Assembly: GCF_037892425.1 (NCBI RefSeq)
Contig: NZ_JBBKTT010000001.1
Coordinates: forward strand, 2,604,001 to 2,668,000
Reading direction: 5' to 3'
Length of the DNA stretch: 64,000 nucleotides
DNA from: Lacibacter sp. H375
GTDB lineage: Bacteria > Bacteroidota > Bacteroidia > Chitinophagales > Chitinophagaceae
The notes beneath the pieces were generated by a model. That model saw only the letters and a list, made by a program, of their open reading frames with translations, did no database searches and had not been told where the DNA came from. Below are positions 1,937 to 18,916 of the stretch, piece by piece. Position numbers and translations under genes: made by a program. Position 1 is the stretch's first letter. Every line of letters begins with the position of its first letter.

Positions 1937-1975
1937 CTGCAGTTCTTTTAACACCGGTATGAAAATACTGGTCCG

Positions 1976-2085
1976 CTTATCAAGAAAGGCAGAGGGTAAT
2001 GGCCCAATGAAGCCTTGGCAACCTCTCTCAATTGTTTTGCAACTGAAAGAAAGGTGCCAATTCCATCCTGAAAAGGGTAGATAAG
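1976..2085 (+). ncRNA. SAM-I (S-box) riboswitch
   Basis: S-adenosylmethionine-binding leader RNA. The P1 helix pairs CTTATC (1976-1981) with GATAAG (2080-2085). Between them lie the S-box landmarks in order: TCAAGAaAGGCAGAGGG, GGCCCAATGAAGCCTtGGCAACC, a variable P3 hairpin, then GGTGCCAATTCC. These match the known SAM-I consensus closely. A classic intrinsic terminator follows at 2126-2156, so SAM binding should end transcription before metY. The first coding gene downstream is metY, an expected SAM-I target. Confidence 0.93.
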
Positions 2086-2125
2086 TCAGATTTCAAGCTT
2101 AACAATGTTCAATTACATAGCAAAA

Positions 2126-2156
2126 GCTCATCTGATATTATCGGATGAGCTTTTTT
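2126..2156 (+). terminator. Riboswitch-linked intrinsic terminator
   Basis: GCTCATCTGA (2126-2135) pairs with TCGGATGAGC (2141-2150) in a 10-bp stem with a 5-nt loop, followed by six T. It is the expression platform of the SAM-I aptamer just upstream. Confidence 0.9.
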
Positions 2157-2293
2157 GTTTTGAACATGTTTGTTCTTACAACTGCTTCCGTTAAACTGTT
2201 TCTTAGATAGGTAAAAGAGAATGTAGAAAAACAAAAGCAGATGAAACAAACAATTGTTATTAAAAGCATTGACAAAACTTTTGCAAATGAGAA

Positions 2294-2342: not shown

Positions 2343-2420
2343 ATGTACAACAGCAACAACAATACAAACCATTCTTTAACTGCAGCCATGCAGTGTTGTT
2401 GTATTTGTTGTATGCCGTAA
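2343..2420 (+). CDS. Cysteine-rich leader peptide upstream of metY (25 aa)
   Basis: A 25-codon ORF, ATG 2343 to TAA 2418-2420, ending in MQCCCICCMP: five Cys codons (2394-2402 and 2406-2411) and two Met codons in the last ten. An in-frame upstream ATG at 2241 would give 59 residues, but the promoter at 2294-2325 lies between the two starts and favours the short form. The product has no recognisable domain, and its position and Cys run suggest a leader peptide whose translation rate reports charged tRNA-Cys. A perfect 8-bp hairpin (2409-2428) has the stop codon in its loop. A second peptide of the same design precedes the TonB receptor at 16127. Established parallel: polycysteine leader ORFs that attenuate sulfur operons in mycobacteria. 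Translation here is inferred, not shown. Confidence 0.6.
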   Translation: MYNSNNNTNHSLTAAMQCCCICCMP

Positions 2421-7067: not shown

Positions 7068-7104
7068 TATATTTGCAGTCATACAACCCTACTCAGTAAG
7101 TAGG
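7068..7104 (+). promoter_or_regulatory. cysD promoter and CCTACT/AGTAGG inverted repeat
   Basis: TATATTTG at 7068-7075 matches the TAnnTTTG -7 box; a good -33 TTTG is not visible. Thirteen bases downstream, at the predicted start point, CCTACT (7088-7093) and AGTAGG (7099-7104) form a perfect 6-bp inverted repeat with a 5-nt spacer, followed by ATAATAA. The same arrangement recurs before cobA. It could be a repressor operator or an RNA hairpin in the 5' UTR. Confidence 0.5.
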
Positions 7105-9381: not shown

Positions 9382-9394
9382 ATGATCTTAAACC

Positions 9395-9409
9395 CTACTT
9401 ACAGAGTAG
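9395..9409 (+). promoter_or_regulatory. CTACT/AGTAG inverted repeat before cobA
   Basis: CTACT (9395-9399) and AGTAG (9405-9409), preceded by AACC and followed by AATAATAA. It aligns with the element before cysD in both arms and flanks. No TAnnTTTG box is visible upstream, so here it may act as a leader hairpin or processing site rather than a promoter operator. Confidence 0.5.
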
Positions 9410-13681: not shown

Positions 13682-14362
13682 TTGAACAAATTGCTTACGA
13701 TAGGATTAGTTGCGCTTTCAGCACGAGCTTACACTCAAACCCCGTCTGCTGAGTTGTGGATTGGTGCAAATGTTACTGTAGCGTTTCAAAATAATTGGCA
13801 ATGGCATAATGATGCAGGCTACAGGACAAATGGTGTAAATCTTGTTCCTCATCAATATCTTTATCGTACAGGTATCCGTAAAATATTTTCAACGAAATGG
13901 AACGCAGCTTCTGGTGCTGCATTTTTTTCAACCAGGATATCATATAACAAAGACGACCATGAATTTGGAAATGAATACCGGGCATGGCAGGAAGTAAATC
14001 ACCAGCATGAATGGAAAAATGGTTTCAGTTTGCAGAACCGGTTCAGGACTGAAGAGCGTTTTTTTGAAGAGGTGAGTAACAGGGATGCCTACAATGCATT
14101 GCGGTTGCGTTATCGTGTTGCTGTTACAAAGCGGTTTTCGGAAAAATGGACAGTTCAGGTGGCAGATGAGTATATGCGCCAGTTGCAGCAGAAACAATTT
14201 TTATTTAATCAAAACAGAACATTGATTTCCCTTGGGCATGATTTAAAAAAACATGTACAATTGCAGGCCGTTTATATCTGGCAACAGCGACCAACGGGAT
14301 CACAACATATTTTGGCACTCTTATTTCAAAAAACAATTACGGCAGATGGAAACAAGAACTGA
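13682..14362 (+). CDS. DUF2490-like outer-membrane protein (sulfur operon copy)
   Basis: Product of 226 residues starting at a TTG with a signal peptide (MNKLLTIGLVALSARAYTQ). The mature part alternates aromatic and polar residues and carries WQWHNDAGYRTNG and the repeated NRFRTEERF and LRYRVAVTKRF patterns usual in DUF2490 beta-barrel proteins, so I place it in the outer membrane. It sits five bases after cysI and overlaps the next gene by 17 bp, so it is a full member of the sulfite-reduction operon. A second such protein lies at 18917 in the same island, close to a TonB receptor. Function is not known; a channel for sulfate or an organosulfur compound is a guess from context. Confidence 0.65.
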   Translation: MNKLLTIGLVALSARAYTQTPSAELWIGANVTVAFQNNWQWHNDAGYRTNGVNLVPHQYLYRTGIRKIFSTKWNAASGAAFFSTRISYNKDDHEFGNEYRAWQEVNHQHEWKNGFSLQNRFRTEERFFEEVSNRDAYNALRLRYRVAVTKRFSEKWTVQVADEYMRQLQQKQFLFNQNRTLISLGHDLKKHVQLQAVYIWQQRPTGSQHILALLFQKTITADGNKN

Positions 14363-15833
14363 TGCAGATAAAAAAAACAGGCTCTATCCTGTTTTCCTGA
14401 AGCTGGAGGAATTACGCATCCTGCTGGTTGGAGCAGGGAATGTGGGCTTAGAGAAGCTGCATTCGTTGCTGGCAAATTCACCGGAAGCAAGTATTACGAT
14501 CGTTGCTCCAATTGTAAAAGATGAAGTAAGAAAGTTAGTATTTAAGCATCCTGCATCAGTTATTGTTCAACGGGAATTTGAAGCGTCTGATCTTGAACAG
14601 AAAGACATCGTTATTCTTGCCACTGATAATCGCAAGCTGCATGAAGAAGTAAGAATATTGGCAAAGGAAAAAGGCATGTTGGTGAACGTAGCCGATACGC
14701 CTGATCTTTGCGATTTTTATTTGGGAAGTATTGTACAGAAAGGAAATCTGAAAGTAGCTATTTCAACAAATGGCAAATCGCCAACTGTTGCAAAACGAAT
14801 CAAAGAAGTATTAAATGATGCATTGCCCGGTGAACTGGATGAAGTGATCGAAAATCTCCACCATGTAAGAAACAAGTTGAATGGTAATTTCGAATACAAG
14901 GTAAAGAAGCTTAATTCAATCACAAAGGTATTGGTTGAAAAAGATCGAATAGGTACAGAACGCCAATGGAAAAAAATTGCCACATACTCATTGATCGCTT
15001 TTGCATTAATGCTGGTTGGACATTTTATTTTCTCCTACATTCCATTCGGCCAAATTGCCACTGATACTGTTGCCTGGTACAAAACACTTGATGAAAATTT
15101 TCATTGGCTGGTATTAGCTGGTTTCCTTGCCCAGTTAGTTGATGGTGCTTTAGGAATGGGTTACGGTGTTACGAGTGCTACCGTTTTATTATCGGTAGGT
15201 GTGAGCCCTGCTGCTATCAGTGGAGCAGTGCATACAGCTGAAGTTTTTTCGAGCGCAGCATCCGGCTACAGTCATTATAAATTCGGAAATGTAAATAAGA
15301 AACTGTTCAAAGCGTTAGTAATACCCGGTGTAATCGGCGCCATCTTAGGCGCAGTCTTACTTACATGGCTCGGTAATGCAAATGCTACATGGTTAAGGGC
15401 GATACTCGCAACTTATACGATGTTTCTTGGTGTGAAATTTTTGATCAATGCTTTTCGTGAACAACGTCGTCAGAAAAAATTCAAGCACTATAGTGCATTG
15501 GCGGGTGCCGGTGGTTTTCTTGATTCTTTTGGCGGTGGTGGTTGGGGACCATTAGTTACTACAACACTTATTAATAAAGGAAGAAGTCCGAAATATGTTA
15601 TTGGTTCAGTAAGTTTAACTGAGTTCTTTGTTACACTGGCAAGTGCCTTTACATTTTTTACACTATTAGGTGTAAGTCATTGGCAAATTATTGCAGCATT
15701 AATGATCGGTGGTTTTATTGCAGCTCCAATTGCAGCTAAACTGGTAGGCAAAATGCCAAGAAAAACGGCCTACATTTTATTAGGTATTCTTGTTATTATC
15801 TGGAGTCTACGTATTCTTATAAAAGTTTTCTAA
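14346..15833 (+). CDS. Fusion: siroheme synthase (precorrin-2 dehydrogenase) domain plus TSUP/TauE-like permease
   Basis: Two unlike parts in one 495-residue chain. Residues 1-200 match the CysG/Met8 N-terminal region: RILLVGAGNVGLEKLHSLL (24-42) is the NAD site, and DTPDLCDFYLGSIVQKGNLKVAISTNGKSPTVAK is the conserved core, giving precorrin-2 oxidation and probably iron insertion to siroheme. From about residue 218 the chain becomes hydrophobic, with some eight membrane segments and the TSUP/TauE-SafE look (DGALGMGYGVTSATVLLSVGVSPAAISGAVHTAE and GGGGWGPLVTT). TSUP members move sulfite, sulfate or sulfonates. The ATG at 14346 overlaps the DUF2490 gene by 17 bp; upstream in-frame starts lack homology. 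No other sulfate transporter occurs in the window, so this may be the importer. It ends the operon at a strong terminator. Confidence 0.85.
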   Translation: METRTDADKKNRLYPVFLKLEELRILLVGAGNVGLEKLHSLLANSPEASITIVAPIVKDEVRKLVFKHPASVIVQREFEASDLEQKDIVILATDNRKLHEEVRILAKEKGMLVNVADTPDLCDFYLGSIVQKGNLKVAISTNGKSPTVAKRIKEVLNDALPGELDEVIENLHHVRNKLNGNFEYKVKKLNSITKVLVEKDRIGTERQWKKIATYSLIAFALMLVGHFIFSYIPFGQIATDTVAWYKTLDENFHWLVLAGFLAQLVDGALGMGYGVTSATVLLSVGVSPAAISGAVHTAEVFSSAASGYSHYKFGNVNKKLFKALVIPGVIGAILGAVLLTWLGNANATWLRAILATYTMFLGVKFLINAFREQRRQKKFKHYSALAGAGGFLDSFGGGGWGPLVTTTLINKGRSPKYVIGSVSLTEFFVTLASAFTFFTLLGVSHWQIIAALMIGGFIAAPIAAKLVGKMPRKTAYILLGILVIIWSLRILIKVF

Positions 15834-15854: not shown

Positions 15855-15898
15855 GGGTTACATAAACAAAGCATCATGCCGTTTATGTAACCCTTTTT
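15855..15898 (+). terminator. Terminator of the cysteine biosynthesis operon
   Basis: GGGTTACATAAAC (15855-15867) pairs with GTTTATGTAACCC (15881-15893), a perfect 13-bp stem, followed by five T. Confidence 0.93.
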
Positions 15899-15927
15899 CG
15901 TGCAAGCTAAAAATAAAAGTCTATAAA

Positions 15928-15962
15928 TTTGGTAGGAAATAAATACTCTACTATTTTTGTAG
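15928..15962 (+). promoter_or_regulatory. Promoter with CTAC/GTAG operator before the TonB receptor
   Basis: TTTG at 15928-15931, a 20-nt spacer, then TATTTTTG at 15952-15959: the same geometry as the promoters before the riboswitch and before the metY leader. CTACT (15948-15952) and GTAG (15959-15962) flank and overlap the -7 box, followed by GGTAATGA, which resembles the GATAATAA after the cysD repeat. The start point would fall at about 15963-15967, so the leader peptide ATG at 15967 is at or almost at the 5' end. Confidence 0.55.
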
Positions 15963-15966
15963 GGTA

Positions 15967-16047
15967 ATGAAAAATGTCAATCATCTCAACATTCACATGA
16001 TCATGCGATTCGCATCGGCTACACGATGTTGTATGTGCAACTGTTGA
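15967..16047 (+). CDS. Cysteine-rich leader peptide upstream of the TonB receptor (26 aa)
   Basis: A 26-codon ORF, ATG 15967 to TGA 16045-16047, ending in TRCCMCNC: four Cys codons (TGT TGT ATG TGC AAC TGT) in the last six. It has no recognisable domain. The predicted promoter places the ATG at the transcript 5' end, so it may be read leaderless. It shares M1, N3, N5 and H10, overall length and a Cys-rich tail with the peptide at 2343. The gap of 79 nt to the receptor start holds a weak CGCT/AGCG hairpin and no T-run, so control could be by coupling or RNA stability rather than termination. Inference: a cysteine-supply sensor that tunes receptor expression. Translation is not demonstrated. 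Confidence 0.6.
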   Translation: MKNVNHLNIHMIMRFASATRCCMCNC

Positions 16048-16126
16048 TCATTTGCTCCTCCATATAACTGTCATTCTTTTCGCTCTTAATAGCGGTCTAT
16101 CTATTTATTTCTAAAAACTAATTATA

Positions 16127-18709
16127 ATGAGAAGGTGTTTTCTTTTTGTTTTATTGCTAACAGCACTTACGCAGGTTTCGTTTGGACAGAGTGTGTTAAA
16201 AGGAATTATTAAAGATGGTAAGGGGCAGCCCGTTGAGGCAGCCAGTATCAAGGTAAAAGGAACTGCAATTAATGCTGTTGCTGATGGTAAAGGACATTTT
16301 AATATTCCTGCGCCAAGGGAATTGCCTTTTACGTTACTTATTTCTTCAGCTGGGTATTACCCAAGCGAAGTAGAGATCACTGAGTTAAAGGAAGCTGAAT
16401 TAAATATTGTTTTAATTGACAACAATCAATTGTCGGAAGTTGTGATTACTTCACGTCGCCGTATTGAAACAGCACAGAATGTTCCTATTGCTATTTCAGT
16501 AGTAGGAGGTGCACAAATTGAAAATGCAGGTGCGTTTAACGTAAACCGTTTGAAAGAGCTTATACCAAGTGTGCAACTTTATACCTCCAATCCACGTAAC
16601 ACCGGTATTAATATCCGTGGACTGGGATCACCATTCGGACTTACCAACGATGGTCTTGATCCGGGTGTAGGTTTTTATGTTGATGGTGTATATTTTGCAC
16701 GCCCTGCCGCAGCAACACTTGATTTTATCGACATCGAGCAAATTGAAGTATTGCGTGGTCCACAAGGAACACTGTTTGGTAAGAACACGACTTCAGGTGC
16801 ATTCAACATCACTACCCGTAAACCAAGTTTTAATCCCGGTGCAAATTTCGAAGTGAGTTATGGCAACTATGGATATATACAAGCCAAAAGTTCAATAACA
16901 GGTGCATTAACGAAGAAGATAGCCGGACGTCTTTCTTTCTCTGGTACACAACGTAATGGTTTAATTGAAAATGTCAAAACAGGAAAGTACACGAATGATA
17001 TCAATAACCTCGGCTTACGTGGCCAGTTATTATTCAAACCTTCAGTTAATACCTCTATAACACTTGCCGGTGATCTGTCCCGTCAACGTCCTGATGGTTA
17101 TGCACAAGTAGTAGCCGGTGTGGTGCAAACAAAACGTGCAGCGTACCGCCAATTCAATGCAATCATTGCTGATCTTAATTATTCATTGCCCAGCCAGAAT
17201 GCATTCGATCGTAAAATAGATCATGATGTTCCGTGGAATTCCGGTAACGATTTAGGTGGAGCTTCATTGAATATTGAACAAAAGATAGGATCAGGTACGC
17301 TTACAGCAACTACAGCTTGGCGTTATTGGAATTGGGATCCATCTAATGATAGAGACTTTACAGGTTTGCAAGCATTGGCTAAGTCTCAAAATCCGGCTAA
17401 GCATCAAAACTGGTCACAAGAAGTTCGTTATGCAGGTCAGTTGTCTTCACGCTTGAGTGGTGTTATTGGTTTGTTTTATATTGACCAGGAAGTTAAGATC
17501 AATGGTACAGAGGAATCAGGTTCTGCTCAGTGGCGTTTTTCACAAAGCTCAACCAGTAATCTTTGGAAAACACCGGGTCTGTTCGAAGGTTTTGGAATTA
17601 ATACAAAAGCTTCTATCAAATCGAAGAGCGCTGCCGTATTCACAAATATTGATTGGGAAGTATTTGAAGGATTTCACATTTTGCCGGGGTTACGCTACAA
17701 TTACGATGAAAAAGATGTTGTTTACAACCGTATAGCATATGGTGGTTTGGATACAGCTACTTACAATGGTTCTAAAGGAGATAAAACTACTTTGCAAGGA
17801 TTTAAAAACGGAGTATACACCAGCCAGGCTTATGTGGCCAATGCGAATGAAAATAATCTTACTTACCAGCTTACACTTTCTTACAGAGCAAATAAACATA
17901 TCAATACATTTGCAACTTATTCAACCAGCTTTAAGCCAGTTGGTGTTAACGTTGCAGGTTTGCCAACTGTAAACGGTCAGGCAGCAACTGATCTGGCAGT
18001 AATAAAACCGGAAGATGTAAGACATTTTGAAGTTGGTGTTAAAACAAATCCAACAGACAACTTTATTTTGAATGCCGTATTCCACAATACGAATATTCAG
18101 AACTATCAAACGAATGTTCAATCGGCAGAGTTAGGTGTTAACCGTGGTTACATTGCCAATGCAGAAGAAGTGAATGTAAAAGGAGTAGAGCTTGATGCAA
18201 ACTATAAAGTAAATAGCCACTTCTTATTCTATGGAGCGTTGGCTTATACCGATGCGAAGTATGTGAAGTTTGCAAATGCACCGCTTCCACTTGAAGAAAC
18301 AGGGTTGACTGAAAATGGCGTGCAGAAAGCATTCAAAGATATTTCAGGTGGCGTACTTCCCGGTATTTCAAAATGGTCAGGATCATTGGGCGGTGAGTTT
18401 ACAAAAGCATCTACTTTCTTGAATAAACCTGCAAAATTCTTTATTGCATTGGAAAGTTTTTATCGCTCTTCTTTTTCGTCGAGTCCATCTCCATCAGCTT
18501 ACCTGAACATTGATGGTTATGCACTTGTGAATGGACGAGTAGGCTTCCGTTGCGTTAACACAGGCTTTTCTGCTTTTGTATGGGGTAGAAATATTTTCAA
18601 TAAAAACTACTATGAACAACTTTTGCCGGCAGGTGGTAATGCAGGTCAATATGGAGCTGTTCTTGGAGATCAGGCTACTTATGGAGTAACGTTGCGCTAC
18701 TCACTTTAA
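16127..18709 (+). CDS. TonB-dependent outer-membrane receptor in the sulfur island
   Basis: An 860-residue energy-coupled importer. Order: signal peptide (1-20, ending SFGQ), carboxypeptidase-like regulatory domain (about 21-105, VLKGIIKDGKGQPVEAASIKVKG), plug (about 110-235, with RGLGSPFGLTNDGLDPGVGFYVDGVYFARP and EVLRGPQGTLFGKNTTSGAFNITTRKP), then a 22-strand type barrel ending in the aromatic YGVTLRYSL. It has no SusD partner, so it resembles siderophore/vitamin-type receptors more than the SusC class. Its leader carries a promoter and CTAC/GTAG motif like those of the metY leader, plus a Cys-rich peptide. That context suggests uptake of an organosulfur compound under cysteine shortage; the substrate cannot be read from the sequence. 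A terminator hairpin lies 66 bp downstream. Confidence 0.85.
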   Translation: MRRCFLFVLLLTALTQVSFGQSVLKGIIKDGKGQPVEAASIKVKGTAINAVADGKGHFNIPAPRELPFTLLISSAGYYPSEVEITELKEAELNIVLIDNNQLSEVVITSRRRIETAQNVPIAISVVGGAQIENAGAFNVNRLKELIPSVQLYTSNPRNTGINIRGLGSPFGLTNDGLDPGVGFYVDGVYFARPAAATLDFIDIEQIEVLRGPQGTLFGKNTTSGAFNITTRKPSFNPGANFEVSYGNYGYIQAKSSITGALTKKIAGRLSFSGTQRNGLIENVKTGKYTNDINNLGLRGQLLFKPSVNTSITLAGDLSRQRPDGYAQVVAGVVQTKRAAYRQFNAIIADLNYSLPSQNAFDRKIDHDVPWNSGNDLGGASLNIEQKIGSGTLTATTAWRYWNWDPSNDRDFTGLQALAKSQNPAKHQNWSQEVRYAGQLSSRLSGVIGLFYIDQEVKINGTEESGSAQWRFSQSSTSNLWKTPGLFEGFGINTKASIKSKSAAVFTNIDWEVFEGFHILPGLRYNYDEKDVVYNRIAYGGLDTATYNGSKGDKTTLQGFKNGVYTSQAYVANANENNLTYQLTLSYRANKHINTFATYSTSFKPVGVNVAGLPTVNGQAATDLAVIKPEDVRHFEVGVKTNPTDNFILNAVFHNTNIQNYQTNVQSAELGVNRGYIANAEEVNVKGVELDANYKVNSHFLFYGALAYTDAKYVKFANAPLPLEETGLTENGVQKAFKDISGGVLPGISKWSGSLGGEFTKASTFLNKPAKFFIALESFYRSSFSSSPSPSAYLNIDGYALVNGRVGFRCVNTGFSAFVWGRNIFNKNYYEQLLPAGGNAGQYGAVLGDQATYGVTLRYSL

Positions 18710-18806: not shown

Positions 18807-18897
18807 AGCTGTATGGCCGAGTGGTTAGGTAAAAGTCTGCAAAACTTTTTACGTTGGTTCCCTGCCCGATGGCAGGCGAGGAATCCGACTGCAGCGT
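18807..18897 (+). tRNA. tRNA-Cys(GCA)-like gene with a hairpin inserted in the T-loop; possible pseudogene
   Basis: Folding by eye gives: acceptor 18807-18813 with 18890-18896 (six of seven pairs, A1-G72 mismatched); D arm GCCG...GGT from 18816; anticodon stem AAAGT/ACTTT with loop CTGCAAA and anticodon GCA (18839-18841); variable loop TTAC; T stem GTTGG (18853-18857) with CCGAC (18885-18889). The discriminator is T18897, as tRNA-Cys requires; CCA is not encoded. The T-loop should read TTCGAAT, but TTC and GAAT are split by 20 extra bases (18861-18880). Without them the gene has the usual 71 nt. Either the element is tolerated or removed, or this is a decayed copy; the A-G pair and AU-rich anticodon stem favour decay. 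It lies between two genes of the sulfur island, 20 bp before a DUF2490-like start. Confidence 0.65.
18861..18880 (+). repeat. 20-nt palindromic element inserted in the tRNA T-loop
   Basis: CCTGCC-CGAT-GGCAGG-CGAG: a 6-bp perfect hairpin plus a 4-nt tail, placed exactly between tRNA positions 56 and 57. The palindrome in the metY leader (2441-2458) looks like a relative. Confidence 0.65.
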
Positions 18898-18916
18898 CAA
18901 ATGAAACAAAATGCAA

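Follow-up and report, generated by a model that had tools for sequence, protein, structure and literature searches.

In the window, by which we mean the whole 64-kb stretch of DNA analyzed, a TonB-dependent receptor gene in a sulfur island is preceded by a short ORF whose last codons are rich in cysteine. Is this ORF a product of chance, or is it a translated leader, and if so what could its cysteine codons sense on behalf of the receptor gene, which is presumed to be the gene under its control? The features needed below are as follows.

15855..15898, + strand: terminator-like hairpin, arms GGGTTACATAAAC and GTTTATGTAACCC, then TTTTT; read by eye
15918..15935, + strand: operator-like inverted repeat AGTCTATAAATTTGGTAG, overlapping the -33 TTTG
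15928..15959, + strand: predicted promoter of Bacteroidota type, TTTG (15928-15931)-N20-TATTTTTG (15952-15959); read from the sequence
15948..15965, + strand: further operator-like repeat, CTACTATTTTTGTAGGGT, spanning the -7 box; conserved in the genus
15967..16047, + strand: leader ORF of 26 codons, MKNVNHLNIHMIMRFASATRCCMCNC; ATG at 15967, stop TGA at 16045-16047
16024..16031, + strand: CGATGTTG, codons CGA-TGT-TG., joint commonest 8-mer in receptor leader regions
16048..16126, + strand: leader-receptor spacer of 79 nt, with 17 C and 6 G
16127..18709, + strand: TonB-dependent receptor gene, 860 aa; best NCBIfam match TIGR01783 (7.4e-31, under the cut-off)
2343..2420, + strand: companion leader of metY, MYNSNNNTNHSLTAAMQCCCICCMP, 13.6 kb from the receptor leader

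The Cys codons of the receptor leader start at 16027, 16030, 16036 and 16042; all four lie in its last six codons and they extend to the stop. We take TTTG-N20-TATTTTTG to be a promoter of the Bacteroidota type, and 7 nt separate its predicted -7 box from the leader ATG. The position of the ORF, these promoter elements and the metY peptide 13.6 kb away could be read in the sequence as an earlier note on this DNA had described them. The leaderless layout suggested in that note may apply in the genus, where the gap between -7 box and ATG is 7-8 nt, but the gap is longer elsewhere, for example in L008 and L015, and the putative layout would be genus-specific. The hairpin at 15855-15898 has a 13-nt loop, above the limit of the terminator scan, and is absent from the scan list. 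It probably ends the upstream sulfur operon, so that leader and receptor would form a transcript of their own.

The 64 kb contain 13 ORFs that start with ATG, span 8-40 codons and have three or more Cys among their last 10 residues. A Markov-1 model of this sequence predicts 8.25, and the count in this one window was therefore rejected as a sign of significance. Because a single ORF could be due to chance in one sequence, orthologous loci were collected. Receptor orthologues, 59-94% identical, are present in 9 of 14 genus genomes, 23 of 117 family genomes and 16 of 395 class genomes. The family is equated with Chitinophagaceae, and the family labelled f55 is taken to include Flavobacterium, on the strength of named relatives.

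Six of the nine genus genomes with the receptor, that of the window included, have a leader of exactly 26 codons without indels. L384 has a shorter form ending in DRCC, and no leader was found in the receptor-bearing genomes G569 and G575. The residues invariant in the six leaders of 26 codons include His-10, Met-13, Ser-17, Ala-18, Thr-19, Arg-20, Cys-21 and Cys-22, and the tail is reduced to RCCAFAC in G083 and to RCCFCMR in G564. Variable columns at the first, second and third codon positions number 13, 7 and 19, and pN/pS lies between 0.22 and 0.54 in all 15 pairs. The fixed length without indels, the codon-position pattern and the pN/pS values imply that the ORF evolves as coding sequence in the genus. 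By this comparison the 26-codon ORF is real and under purifying selection. The resemblance to the metY peptide reported in the earlier note fared less well: neither N3 nor N5 is retained across the genus; His-10, although kept in the six receptor leaders, is Ser in the metY peptide of G083. These matches look coincidental.

Recurrence across Bacteroidota was assessed with a count restricted to ATG starts and ORFs of 10-45 codons within 300 nt upstream, in which an ORF qualified if it held two Cys adjacent or one apart; 100 shuffles were made per set. A qualifying ORF precedes 23 of 49 receptor orthologues and is lacking at the other 26. Dinucleotide shuffles of the 49 loci gave 2.25 (sd 1.50, maximum 7 in the 100 sets), the antisense strand of the 49 regions gave 4, and the regions upstream of the unrelated gene clpC gave 2 of 61. 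The Fisher value for receptor versus clpC, 5.5e-8, is too optimistic because related loci were counted separately. Before metY, 19 of 30 loci in the family and 46 of 67 in the wider class had a qualifying ORF. The samples comprised 30 of 52 metY loci in the family, 67 of 92 matching genomes for metY in the class (three others being already in the family set), 30 of 37 cysH loci in the Flavobacterium genus and, for clpC, 61 loci from 278 matching genomes, two of 63 having been dropped for short upstream sequence. The count omits L003 (TTG start, RC-stop), L010 (a longer ORF with RCW) and L012 (a single tail Cys), and it includes two doubtful loci, L014 and L004, the latter with a start codon that falls within the -7 box.

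Among 80 named receptor relatives, 13 are counted in the 49. Twelve further ones outside the 49, with 42-54% identity, have a Cys-pair ORF in two cases (L035 and L036), and the other 55, which are more distant TonB proteins together with L026 (no upstream sequence), lie outside the scan. L035 and L036 are titled as Acidobacteria MAGs; their receptor relatives are 47-48% identical, and the upstream Cys-rich ORFs are MRVSLRCRNCCRS and MRLLLICCCPCHAMATCRLVCTRPTTVQ. L037, titled as a Klebsiella pneumoniae MAG and possibly a mis-binned contig, has a receptor 54% identical.

Frame conservation in six species and enrichment across loci uphold the earlier view that the ORF at 15967-16047 is a conserved Cys-rich leader and did not arise by chance. 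The two refuting conditions set in that note both came out in favour of the leader: such ORFs are rare ahead of an unrelated gene, as the clpC count shows, and no break in the frame occurs in the six species with 26 codons, although the leader is absent from two genus genomes and from 26 of the 49 loci.

The tails among the 23 leaders include MMCMC in Flavobacterium, PYCCCPQ in Dyadobacter, KRMCC in Sphingobacterium and SRCCC in Niabella. A scan for MMCMC in 61 genomes of the Flavobacterium-type genus returned 16 matches in 16 genomes, against one for the reversed control; 12 precede the receptor, three precede cysH or metY (the metY of L185 being named by eye) and one is apparently due to chance. 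Eighteen Flavobacterium-type receptor leaders of 34-39 codons, 11 of them found via the tail pattern itself, keep the frame, the MK start and the MMCMC tail, and vary in the middle. Mean pS and pN in this set are 0.335 and 0.213 over the 78 closer pairs, and pN exceeds pS in 5 of the 11 closest non-identical pairs, so that selection within the 18 is weak. The class metY loci sampled come from 25 families. By our own tally, for which 400 nt were used and Met/Cys runs counted as well, 18 of these families show a clear leader at one or more loci, and two more have doubtful ones.

Between genera the N-termini are not conserved, and what recurs is Cys codons, often accompanied by Met codons. Cys spacing varies (RCC, CCCC, CMCCCCC, MMCMC). 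Met is the commonest residue between the first and last Cys in the metY leaders of the class (46 of 170) and in receptor leaders (11 of 43); in the metY leaders of the family it is Ile, not Met (10 of 34). The varying spacing, the unconserved N-termini and the Met between Cys look like the counting of sulfur amino-acid codons and not like a fixed metal site.

The reading that we consider likely from these comparisons is that the receptor leader is a translated peptide through which the TonB receptor gene senses cysteine. Transcription would start at or just before the leader ATG, from a promoter lying under the operator-like repeats, and a ribosome would translate the leader. With Cys-tRNA(Cys) scarce, it would stall at Cys codons 21, 22, 24 and 26, near the stop, and the stalled ribosome would keep the receptor gene on. 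With ample cysteine it would finish the leader and leave the 79-nt spacer free, and expression would fall, most likely by Rho-type termination in the C-over-G spacer or otherwise through lost translation of the receptor. A ribosome parked at the leader end would keep Rho away, as in the model published for the CruR uORF, in the excerpt of PMC9426467. We infer that the leader has a regulatory role, that stalling acts in the direction given, and that a Rho step and a repressor take part. Once made, the peptide itself probably does nothing further.

The RNA analyses revealed no output step for the receptor leader. The fold of this leader is not unusual (z -0.44), and RNA structure as its output was rejected on that basis; pairing in the small hairpins of G000 is not apparent, by eye, across all six aligned species. 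Between receptor leader and receptor the terminator scan found only a 5-bp stem at 16080-16095; shuffles of the 701-nt region gave 0.5 terminator-like sites. With this one candidate and the ordinary fold, an intrinsic-terminator attenuator was rejected for this leader. Terminators follow 0 of 19 leaders of the metY family set, 7 of 47 of the metY class set and 1 of 18 receptor leaders, in a survey whose leader criterion and 400-nt region differ from those of the 300-nt enrichment count. Since no convincing terminator was found at the receptor leader, the output would be Rho-type or translational.

Twelve leader-receptor spacers measured 70-188 nt. The five genus spacers near 80 nt hold C and G in the numbers 17/6, 18/12, 18/9, 18/5 and 14/12. 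Mean C-G skew is +0.33 in the genus receptor spacers and +0.37 at 17 metY loci with a leader, versus -0.03 at clpC. Seven other receptor-leader spacers are low in G and not high in C (0.129 vs 0.141 at clpC), and the difference in C skew between metY loci with and without a leader is marginal (p 0.054).

A different output is suggested in some Flavobacterium genomes. Leaders before cysH, present at 4 of 30 loci, and the metY leader of L185 show the layout of a classical attenuator, with Cys/Met codons, an intrinsic terminator and a T run. L185 and L221-L224, of the Flavobacterium-type genus, have Cys/Met leaders with intrinsic terminators before metY or cysH. Seven Flavobacterium attenuators contain a segment that could pair with the terminator's 5' arm, with duplex energies of -8.1 to -14.6 kcal/mol computed without a chance control. 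Two leaders stand in a row in L185, L221, L223 and L224; behind the second one, no terminator was detected in L223 or L224.

The companion metY leader ends in a putative hairpin of its own. Its stop codon sits in the loop of the hairpin GTATGCC-GTAA-GGCATAC, and the fold z is -3.69. The conserved hairpin TATGCC-NNNN-GGCATA, at 2410-2427 in the window, lies at the end of metY leaders. The pattern AUGCC-NNNN-GGCAU has 12 exact matches in 117 genomes, 11 before metY and one (L195) inside another ORF. Its stem hardly varies among 16 sequences, which include L108, a locus that lacks a Cys leader. No covariation was found among the 16, and therefore what is conserved is the sequence, and the structure is only putative. 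At gathering score, Rfam gave a single match in the window, the SAM riboswitch RF00162 at 1974-2087, which also precedes metY; RF00162 (S box) has no match at the receptor leader. Window positions 1974-2200 hold the riboswitch and, behind it, a terminator-like hairpin recognized by eye; the Cys leader comes next, with a second promoter. Control of metY thus seems to have two layers, riboswitch and Cys leader. Some metY loci of the family appear, by eye, to carry the riboswitch only.

In classical ribosome-mediated attenuators of the trp/his type, a leader ORF carries the regulatory codons. The Flavobacterium cysH and metY leaders, with terminators and competing complementary segments, resemble them; the receptor leader of the window differs in that no convincing terminator was found and the Cys codons extend up to the stop. 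Closer to it, judging from the excerpts available of the papers cited, are the polycysteine leaderless short ORFs of mycobacteria (Canestrari et al. 2020, as cited in PMC9094748 and PMC9031893; candidates in PMC4633059). Common to both are Cys codons near the stop, an ORF at or near the 5' end of the transcript (here a predicted one) and cysteine or sulfur genes downstream, and actinobacterial cys leaders were reported in 2005, in the part of PMC1262725 consulted, to be without conserved terminator hairpins. The Bacteroidota leaders differ from what these excerpts describe in phylum, in the Met codons mixed in, in the CGA-Cys-Cys core, in the TonB receptor as target and in the conserved hairpin around the stop of the family metY leaders. 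The receptor leader may act in the same way as those of mycobacteria, with no claim of common descent. The uORFC-8-2 motif before cysS in Rhodobacterales is, in the excerpt of PMC8632094, likewise a tandem-Cys uORF near a Cys-related gene, with an intrinsic terminator and a conserved fold, before another gene in another phylum. A transcriptome of Flavobacterium psychrophilum reports leader-peptide attenuation before amino-acid operons, and the section concerned does not name cysteine (PMC9723704). Cys-codon leaders are thus described, in these excerpts, for actinobacteria (PMC1262725) and for cysS of Rhodobacterales (PMC8632094). No description of Cys leaders in Bacteroidota was found in the literature searched, a body that leaves most subscription journals outside. 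New here are the lineage, the TonB target and the fixed rare CGA codon before Cys-Cys.

Cys and Met are also ligands of Cu(I), and a Cys/Met-rich nascent peptide could bind a metal (Cu(I) or Zn) or sense redox and thereby control the TonB receptor in the manner of CruR. In Bordetella pertussis the CruR (DUF2946) uORF lies before the TonB transporter gene bfrG and acts through Rho and ribosome stalling in response to copper, which is sensed by a CXXC in the nascent protein, in the excerpt of PMC9426467. A uORF ahead of a TonB-dependent transporter gene, its presumed target here, is common to both cases. CruR, however, is in that excerpt a protein of 145 residues with predicted export, a CXXC and a C-terminal RAPP, and it senses copper; neither motif, nor any of the other traits, is present in the 26-residue leader. 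Its Cys spacing is not fixed across loci, the same kind of leader precedes metY and cysH, and the receptor lies within a sulfate-assimilation island. Metal or redox sensing is on these grounds unlikely.

The Arg codon before Cys-Cys is CGA in 13 of 13 family-type receptor leaders, a codon that makes up 8.3% of Arg codons in 30 long ORFs of the window. CGATGTTG, which contains it, occurs in 16 of 31 family-type receptor leader regions versus 0.11 expected by composition, and it persists in L010, L022 and L003, where the codon that follows is TGG or a stop. Since it is kept without a second Cys codon, codon sensing alone is insufficient as an explanation; either the rare CGA is part of the stalling signal, or CGATGTTG has a second role at the nucleotide level. 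The same excess, the fixed rare codon and the retention at the three loci that lost the second Cys codon could also mean that CGATGTTG is primarily an RNA or DNA element, the binding site of an sRNA or a protein, and the reading frame secondary. Against such an element, selection at the protein level spans the 26 codons, receptor leaders of other families that lack the 8-mer keep their Cys codons (L031, L139, L148), and no full 8-nt complement common to the 14 loci tested was found nearby; partial complements, scored without a chance control, are 4-7 nt long and differ among these loci. We regard this possibility as improbable.

Purifying selection on the ORF would equally be expected of a small functional protein, secreted or metal-chelating, and spacers of the lengths measured would permit mere delivery of ribosomes to the receptor start, with no sensing in either case. 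Outside the genus, however, the N-terminal part is hardly conserved while the Cys codons recur, and an NCBIfam search with five leaders gave no match at E up to 1. In the leaders, a set chosen for its Cys pairs, Cys makes up 21-38% of the 12 C-terminal residues, versus 0.8% of codons in 30 long window ORFs. A small protein or a delivery ORF is accordingly very unlikely. That the ORF arose by chance in an operator and promoter region, as the 8.25 such ORFs expected and 13 seen in 64 kb might allow, is contradicted by the enrichment across loci and the conserved frame in six species, and is extremely unlikely.

The cysteine sensor would be joined by a transcriptional layer. A permissive operator pattern (AGTCTAY-N-GTAG type) overlaps the promoter in 20 of 23 family receptor regions, a count made without a chance control, and the 8-mer TTTGGTAG occurs in 16 of 31 receptor regions. 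In the genome of the window a looser operator pattern has 26 matches vs 57 for the reversed control, and the strict repeat AGTCTAYN{5,9}GTAG has 2 vs 22, so that no regulon is shown there by operator patterns. CTACTATTTTTGTAGGGT is the sole match without mismatch among the 26, the metY site is one of three with 1 mismatch, and only the receptor and metY leaders provide a Cys ORF beside a promoter. A scan with bare TGYTGYNNNTGY was uninformative (1783 matches). ORFs of the leader type are strongly enriched before metY and the receptor and also precede some Flavobacterium cysH genes (4/30), but for the regulon suggested in the earlier note the support from the own genome is weak. Palindromes of CTACT-N-AGTAG type that resemble the receptor operator lie at 7086-7103 and 9392-9409, before cysD and the uroporphyrinogen methyltransferase gene. 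At all eight Flavobacteriaceae-type loci examined, the gene upstream of the leader or receptor encodes a similar small protein, and the one compared with Pfam, from Flavobacterium saccharophilum, is an Rrf2 protein (PF02082, 3.8e-32). By synteny in these loci the repressor may belong to the Rrf2 family, and it would bind the repeat.

A broader generalization, to which we give about an even chance, is that sulfur amino acids across the Bacteroidota class are under the control of fast-evolving leaders of Cys and Met codons that arose apart from the actinobacterial ones. They would have two outputs, terminator attenuators in some Flavobacterium and a terminator-free form with Cys abutting the stop, would govern metY, cysH and TonB import, and in the window's family would include CGA in the stalling signal. 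Leaders of the Cys type extend beyond metY to an outer-membrane receptor. Bacteroidota initiate translation without Shine-Dalgarno sequences, and the generalization, if true, would name a control layer for sulfur supply in such a phylum, offer in the leaders a way to find sulfur-uptake receptors, and provide a test case for how, with no intrinsic terminator present, a ribosome halted at a run of codons close to the stop can control a gene.

The island around the receptor holds the SAM riboswitch, metY, a hydrolase-fold gene, a homoserine dehydrogenase-like gene, cysH, cysD and cysN. Then come the uroporphyrinogen methyltransferase gene, cysJ, cysI, a DUF2490 gene and a CysG-N/TauE fusion, followed by the TonB receptor at 16127, a second DUF2490 gene and O-succinylhomoserine sulfhydrylase. 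In the fusion, at 14253-15833, a siroheme-synthase N-terminal domain is joined to a TauE/SafE permease domain; the DUF2490 proteins are encoded at 13682 and 18911.

At 9 of 38 loci scanned (L002, L005, L007, L008, L016, L382, L383, L384 and L386) the receptor gene is closely followed, on its own strand, by a tRNA-Cys (GCA), which favours the cysteine-sensor reading; all nine belong to the window's family. ARAGORN called no tRNA anywhere in the window. Positions 18807-18898, downstream of the receptor, resemble a tRNA-Cys with about 20 extra nt in the T loop, an insert made up of the palindrome CCTGCC-CGAT-GGCAGG at 18861-18876 and a few more nt. The congener G573 has a tRNA-Cys without the insert in the same place.
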